A DNA stretch of 64,000 nt. Origin: Eggerthellaceae bacterium (GTDB taxonomy: Bacteria > Actinomycetota > Coriobacteriia > Coriobacteriales > Eggerthellaceae). A program made the translations under genes and the position numbers. The stretch spans positions 62,001 through 126,000 of the forward strand of contig WRIS01000004.1 of the NCBI GenBank assembly GCA_009782615.1, written 5' to 3'. Positions within the stretch are counted from its first letter, which is position 1. Each line of letters opens with the position of its first letter. Below the pieces are notes generated by a model. It had not been told where the DNA came from and did no database searches. It saw only the letters and a list, made by a program, of their open reading frames with translations. Shown here one piece after another: positions 42,298 through 43,761 of this stretch.

Positions 42298-42987
42298 CTA
42301 TAAAAGTTCTCGGACAATAGCGGCAATGTGCAGTTGAGTTGTGTTAAGAAGCAAAGTGTCTAAATCGCCCTCTTGTATCATAAGGGGTAGTTCGGTGCAG
42401 CCAAGAACAAGCGCATCAGCCCCCTGTTCGAGAAGTAAACGATTAGTAAGTTCAAGCATTTTTTGTTTATCTTCAGGAACAACGATACCGTTTTCAAGAT
42501 GGGGAACAATAAAGCTATGGATAAGTTCTTGCTCGCTTTTTGAGGGCACAACTGCGGCAATGCCATATTCTTGAAATGCTTTGCTATATAAACTACTGCC
42601 CATGGTGAAACGCGTACCTAAAACCAGTACTTTTTTGTAGCCTTGAGCCTGAGCGTATTTGCAGGTTTCATCAACGATGCTCACCAGGGGTAGCGCAACG
42701 CGCTTCTGGATTTCGTCAAAAACAATGTGTGGCGTGTTGGAAGCTAGGGCTCCCAATTCTGCACCAGCTGCGGTAAGGTCACCAATCGCGTTGACGAGCA
42801 AATTTGTAACCGCTTTCCAGTCATTAGCTTCTGCTAAGCCGAGCATCTTGGTCATATTGATACTTGAGATAACAAGTTCTGGGTAATCTCCCGTATCTGC
42901 CTGTTCGTATGCGGCATTGACGATGCCTTCGTAATAGTCTAGCGTTGAAACTGGACCAATTCCGCCGATGATTCCCACTTTTTTCAT
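42298..42987 (-). CDS. Aspartate/glutamate racemase family protein
   Basis: 229 residues. VGIIGGIGPVSTLDYYEGI is the signature start; the second catalytic Cys is in LVLGCTELPLMI. At the first catalytic position, which is Cys in aspartate racemases and Thr in YgeA-type enzymes, this protein has Ser (LASNTPH). Family members interconvert amino-acid enantiomers by two-base chemistry. With Ser there, the activity may be one-sided or on another substrate. The ATG at 42987 has AAAGGG 7-8 nt upstream; a longer frame to 43095 is not supported. Confidence 0.85.
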   Translation of the reverse strand: MKKVGIIGGIGPVSTLDYYEGIVNAAYEQADTGDYPELVISSINMTKMLGLAEANDWKAVTNLLVNAIGDLTAAGAELGALASNTPHIVFDEIQKRVALPLVSIVDETCKYAQAQGYKKVLVLGTRFTMGSSLYSKAFQEYGIAAVVPSKSEQELIHSFIVPHLENGIVVPEDKQKMLELTNRLLLEQGADALVLGCTELPLMIQEGDLDTLLLNTTQLHIAAIVRELL

Positions 42988-43115
42988 AAAAGAACCCTTT
43001 GTTCGCCGTTTGTTCGCAACTTCTGTTTGCGCAATCTCATTATAAGGCTGTTTGCTTAATTGTCTGCGCGGAGCAGACCGATGCAGAAAAAGCATCGAGT
43101 ATTATGCTATGAAAG

Positions 43116-43142
43116 TTGACAAAGCTAGGGGGGGGGTATTAT
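43116..43142 (+). promoter_or_regulatory. Promoter with G9 spacer, candidate phase-variable switch
   Basis: A consensus -35 TTGACA (43116-43121), a 15-nt spacer made of AAGCTA and nine G residues (43128-43136), and a -10 TATTAT (43137-43142). Slippage in the G-run would change the spacer between 14 and 17 nt and so alter promoter strength, as known for poly-G promoters of some mucosal bacteria. It faces the membrane-protein gene 90 nt downstream. Confidence 0.65.
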
Positions 43143-43231
43143 GAGCAAAATTACCTGATGAATTGGTGATTTTGCAAAAGAAGAACTATGGTCGACAAGA
43201 AGACCTGAGTTTGGTATGTTGCTAAAGGTGA

Positions 43232-43564
43232 ATGAGTGTTTTGAAAGGGCGTGTGAGAGTCATGAAAACTAAGGGACAAAAAGGCTTTTCGATTGTAAAC
43301 ATTATTGTGGGGGTTATTTTGACGCTTTCATCTTTTATTATGTTTGCGGATGAGACAACCTATCCTGGGCCGCTTATTGTTTTGCCGCTGGGATTAGTTA
43401 TTCTCATATGCGGATGGCTTACCTTGAGAAAACTAACCGCCGCGCGACACTCCAATACGAGTGTTGAGAAAAACATGCTTGTTTTTAACCTCGTTTGTTT
43501 TGTGCTGTCGTGCATAATTTTAGCGGCGGTCATCATTTTGCCGATTATAGGACCAATGCTTTAA
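43232..43564 (+). CDS. Small membrane protein under the poly-G promoter
   Basis: 110 residues with three predicted membrane helices: IVNIIVGVILTLSSFIMFA, GPLIVLPLGLVILICGWL and VFNLVCFVLSCIILAAVIIL. A polar loop (RKLTAARHSNTSVEKN) separates the last two. No known family comes to mind. The start may be ATG 43232 (AAAGG is very close) or ATG 43262. It is the only gene clearly served by the G9-spacer promoter, so it may be switched on and off within a population; a surface or stress role would be a guess. Confidence 0.65.
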   Translation: MSVLKGRVRVMKTKGQKGFSIVNIIVGVILTLSSFIMFADETTYPGPLIVLPLGLVILICGWLTLRKLTAARHSNTSVEKNMLVFNLVCFVLSCIILAAVIILPIIGPML

Positions 43565-43761
43565 TCTCCTGCCGTAATTTTTGGGTAGCTAGTCACATCG
43601 GGGCATAGAGCTGTATTTGAGCGGTTGAGGGTAAGCGCGCGCGGCTTGTGTCGCGCGTATGGGCGTGCGGAAAATTTTTGGGAAAAAAGGGGATGTAGTG
43701 TGCTATCATAGGCAGGCTGTCTTCGCTTTGGTCGGAAACCAAGGCACGAAATGGAGAGATA

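Follow-up and report, generated by a model that had tools for sequence, protein, structure and literature searches.

In Neisseria meningitidis a poly-G tract between the -35 and -10 elements of the porA promoter sets the distance between them, and transcription drops when this distance falls below 17 nt (PMC3899988; PMC7864442). A poly-G tract between -35 and -10 is also found in Treponema pallidum at tp0126, which encodes an OmpW homolog and has an optimum total spacing of 17 nt; tprL provides a further poly-G promoter precedent (PMC7864442). For PPA1880 of Propionibacterium (Cutibacterium) acnes, tracts of G11, G13 and G15 give spacers of 18, 20 and 23 nt in three strains, and the protein was secreted by the 18-nt strain only (PMC3224659). 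Replication slippage in a poly-G tract of a surface structure, the pilus of Bifidobacterium breve, was detected by maximum depth sequencing (PMC9187656). Most catalogued cases of phase variation through simple repeats come from pathogens, a distribution which may reflect database bias according to a review (PMC11868660).

The locus described here lies in a 64-kb stretch of DNA (the window, meaning the whole stretch that was analysed) belonging to the draft genome of an Eggerthellaceae bacterium (1.67 Mb in 15 contigs). Direct reading of the plus strand at 43116-43142 gave TTGACA-AAGCTAGGGGGGGGG-TATTAT: a -35 hexamer matching the consensus at 6/6 positions (43116-43121), a 15-nt spacer composed of AAGCTA followed by nine G residues (43122-43136), and a -10 hexamer matching at 5/6 positions (43137-43142). 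The G9 tract, which is the proposed slippage site, forms the 3' nine bases of the spacer (43128-43136). The first-pass annotation had given this same arrangement, exact in sequence and coordinates, and had also claimed that the window holds no other G run of that length; no other run of G, and none of C, reaches 7 nt there. The site was absent from the results of a simple promoter scan, since the scan accepted spacers of 16-18 nt only. TATTAT is located 89 nt upstream of the start of a gene coding for a protein of 110 aa, and from the standard distance between -10 and +1 the transcript would be expected to start near 43149.

The locus has in common with porA a poly-G spacer between -35 and -10; it differs in phylum and in its product, porA specifying a porin of the outer membrane whose output has been measured and depends on tract length, whereas the protein in question here is a small, predicted membrane protein. 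The tp0126 promoter, in contrast, has been tested with reporters and serves a spirochaete outer-membrane protein. PPA1880 is the closest case within the same phylum and also has a poly-G spacer promoter, but it encodes a putative secreted adhesin and its spacers are long, while that of our locus, at 15 nt, is short; furthermore, NucS is present in nearly all members of the class to which P. acnes belongs (PMC5290159). B. breve is, likewise, a member of the Actinomycetota, a gut commensal, and its tract is poly-G, although that tract is coding and switches the reading frame, not the promoter spacing. The sequence comparisons make it well supported that the locus is a poly-G spacer promoter of the porA, tp0126 and PPA1880 kind, and a candidate phase switch.

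We consider it likely that the site is a sigma-70-type promoter of the 110-aa gene, that a slippage-prone G tract makes up most of its spacer and that it works as a spacing switch. Slippage during replication would add or remove G residues and shift the -35 to -10 distance: with G9, and hence 15 nt, the promoter would be weak or off, and with G10 to G12, giving 16 to 18 nt, initiation would be stronger. The outcome would be a heritable and reversible mix of expressing and non-expressing cells. By analogy with porA and tp0126, which perform best at 17 nt, and with PPA1880, which is on at 18 nt, the present G9 tract would represent the low state, from which expression would rise with the gain of one to three G residues. 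A spacer of 15 nt is unusual, and the promoter could also be a permanently poor one. What we infer at this locus comprises promoter activity, slippage at 43128-43136, the direction of the effect, the response of the 110-aa gene and a benefit to the cell.

The putative 110-aa gene (43232-43564, plus strand) has an alternative start at ATG 43262, which would yield 100 aa. Its product had been annotated as an unassigned three-helix membrane protein; three membrane helices were predicted for it, with a low-confidence single-sequence model (mean pLDDT 68), and every Pfam match was below the cut-off. No ortholog was found in the genus, and the matches elsewhere in the family were weak and unconvincing (26-39% identity). 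A terminator-like hairpin (43651-43670, plus strand) separates the gene from the L31 gene that follows; the transcription unit is therefore probably the 110-aa gene alone, and a switch would probably affect this gene only. A divergent gene of the Asp/Glu racemase family (42298-42990, minus strand) has its own promoter-like site (43066-43039, minus strand), with the G tract outside it.

When the DNA of the locus was searched against the relatives, the only match was the L31 gene. The L31 gene of the sister genome G001 has a desulfoferrodoxin-like gene as its direct neighbour, and the segment 41778-43564 of the window, which carries the genes for a zinc-ribbon membrane protein, the racemase and the 110-aa protein, is thus a species-specific insertion between genes that adjoin in G001.

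Two further elements were found between the G tract and the 110-aa gene. The first is an 11-bp dyad, GCAAAATTACC-N9-GGTGATTTTGC (43145-43175), overlapping the expected transcript start. Its RNA fold has an energy of -14.3 kcal/mol (z -5.9); in the window and the fetched loci it was seen only here and in copies of the locus, and it is possibly an operator or a 5' hairpin. The other is a weaker promoter-like site on the plus strand, TCGACA-17-TATGTT with TG ahead of the -10 (43192-43220, 9/12 matches), which could give basal, tract-independent expression of the 110-aa gene. An invertible promoter was considered and rejected: the best flanking inverted pair is 19 nt long with 74% agreement, and its arms are 175 nt apart.

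From the run-length decay of the window itself, the probability of a G run of at least 9 is approximately 0.10 per window. The G9 run by itself is unremarkable, since about one such window in ten would hold one. Pattern searches of the whole source genome identified 15 G runs of 8 or longer; of these, 10 had a length of 9 or more, where 2.7 would be expected, and 6 a length of 10 or more, where 0.55 would be expected. TTGACA and TAnnnT bracket two of the 15 tracts (binomial P about 4e-6). It is the placement of the G9 tract, rather than the tract alone, that exceeds chance.

The second copy of the layout (L083; G000:C1:384911-384939, minus strand) reads TTGACA-GTTTGTA-G10-TATTGT, with the optimal 17-nt spacer, and is found 127 nt ahead of the gene for a 129-aa zinc-ribbon membrane protein.

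Other long G tracts were noted as well. At L030:4993-5002 a coding G10 lies at the N-terminus of a 999-aa protein with ChW, LRR and Ig domains, in frame with its start; at L036:5677-5687 a G11 is out of frame in a paralog of this surface protein, the paralog frame being truncated further on as well. Three more G10/G11 tracts (L027:4808-4817, L028:5260-5269 and L033:3124-3134) are all at cell-envelope genes: one at the 5' end of the gene for a CDP-glycerol glycerophosphotransferase, one within a Mur ligase gene, and one 267 nt upstream of the gene for a 952-aa secreted protein. G9 positions in the relatives G001, G012 and G034 were 312, 425 and 1597, and there were also relatives that had none.

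The family was searched with the pattern TTGACA-N3-10-G7-N0-5-TAnnnT in the 138 genomes of the family-level set, which probably corresponds to the Eggerthellaceae, the comparison genomes being one per species. The pattern gave 12 matches and its reversed form none. A displaced control, in which TTGACA was shifted 20 to 50 nt away, gave a single match in the same 138 genomes with approximately four times as many positions (31 instead of 8), so that about 0.26 family matches would be expected by chance. In the family matches there is nearly always no gap between the G tract and the -10, and the product of the following co-directional gene usually has a signal peptide or membrane helices. At the order level a tighter pattern again yielded 12 matches and no reversed ones (397 genomes); one of these matches is identical to an Enorma phocaeensis record (L129/L211), which assigns the window to the order Coriobacteriales in the GTDB sense. 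The G tract of our locus lies between the two hexamers, within a promoter class that recurs non-randomly.

Tract length was compared in six pairs of related promoters with conserved flanks among the matches listed. The lengths were unequal in four of them (G13/G11 in L134/L184, G10/G9 in the L165 pair, G10/G11 in the L130 pair and G9/G11 in L095/L137) and equal in the remaining two (L075/L076 and L155/L195). L165 consists of tandem paralogous genes, each with its own poly-G promoter, and the flanks of the two tracts are near-identical. In the genus g16 two species carry a G10 within a 19-nt spacer; in a third species the -35 is unchanged, the spacer is of 18 nt with G4 only and the -10 is TAGAGT. 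From this comparison the g16 hexamers look like an ancestral promoter, the G tract having apparently been substituted for the spacer later.

Genes for mismatch repair were also searched for. MutS was found in none of 41 genomes (the source genome and 40 relatives), with positive controls detected in 11 of 14 genomes. NucS was not found in the source genome, and seven relatives gave only partial matches of about 40 residues. A published survey describes all analysed Coriobacteriia as being without MutS and NucS (PMC5290159).

A public genome collection was searched with TTGACA-N3-10-G9-TATnnT, which gave at least 120 loci spread over many phyla; Bacillota, Spirochaetota, Saccharibacteria, Planctomycetes and Elusimicrobia are represented, as are Streptobacillus, Helicobacter, Enorma and others. 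Among the matches listed, the -10 is TATAAT (free letters AA) in 55 of 125. The spacer lengths of the listed matches are not uniform and rise at 16-19 nt (chi-square P 7e-17), the position of the peak being poorly defined because the pattern allows at most 19 nt. An N-terminal hydrophobic segment is present in 72-75% of the genes adjacent to the listed matches, against 20-27% of background genes at the same loci (P about 1e-19 to 1e-22). By these three internal tests, on the -10 letters, the spacer distribution and the hydrophobic segments of the adjacent genes, the listed loci are mostly real promoters. A looser pattern gave 9 matches in viral contigs, where enrichment was not seen.

The comparison with porA made in the first-pass annotation was sustained by these results, the layout recurring in the genome, the family and other phyla and being enriched over displaced and reversed controls. 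Its porA-like reading agrees also with the location at genes for exported or membrane proteins, the differences in tract length among related promoters and the missing mismatch repair genes.

Four other explanations were weighed. The promoter may be real and its G tract fixed, in which case expression would be constantly low from the 15-nt spacer or would be governed by an activator, or by a repressor at the dyad 43145-43175. The strength of this dyad, situated over the expected start, is in keeping with this explanation, as are the equal lengths in L075/L076 and L155/L195 and the judgement that tract variation in P. acnes is slow and clade-consistent, not active (PMC4746626). We nevertheless hold a fixed tract to be unlikely in view of the lengths that differ in the other four of the six related pairs, the failure to find MutS and NucS in the genomes searched and the genome-wide excess of long G tracts. 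Still less probable is a chance G9 between promoter-like hexamers, with the gene driven from elsewhere, for example from the site at 43192-43220. The 10% or so probability of a G9 in any such window and the position of that weaker site, closer to the 110-aa gene, speak for it; it is opposed by the occurrence of the layout at two of the 15 genomic tracts, by the 12 family matches against one displaced and none reversed, and by the orthologous g16 promoter, which keeps its hexamers.

A translational switch, with the tract inside a coding sequence and slippage shifting the frame as in the B. breve pilus genes, would have a counterpart in the coding G10/G11 tracts found elsewhere in the genome, and a 16-codon frame starting at ATG 43109 does span the tract at its present length. 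However, each of the three frames that leave the tract meets a stop codon (at 43144, 43158 or 43169) ahead of 43232; whatever the tract length, an upstream frame cannot be joined to the gene, which excludes a coding switch, and a frameshift contingency locus was rejected on this ground, leaving this explanation only a very small probability. An artefact of sequencing or assembly, such as the dark-G tails of two-colour chemistry or a miscounted homopolymer, is equally improbable: in a draft genome such as this one, of 15 contigs, G counts may err by one, but the tract is internal to its contig and has ordinary flanks, and the layout recurs in unrelated records, including those of the isolates Enorma phocaeensis and Streptobacillus notomytis. 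A promoter whose spacing is switched by slippage in the G tract is the reading we retain.

Beyond the single locus, we incline, with some reserve, to the view that poly-G spacer promoters are widespread phase switches of exported proteins among the gut- and animal-associated commensals of many phyla, a general class that has gone largely unrecognised, and that the Coriobacteriales, in which neither of the known mismatch repair systems is present, use such promoters at several loci alongside coding G tracts in envelope genes. In the open-licence papers searched this class was not found described, either for Coriobacteriales or as a feature of commensals across phyla. The locus points to the same type of switch in commensal lineages, one of them without known mismatch repair. 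The searchable signature TTGACA-N-G8+-TAnnnT leads to candidate exported proteins that gut bacteria may switch on and off.
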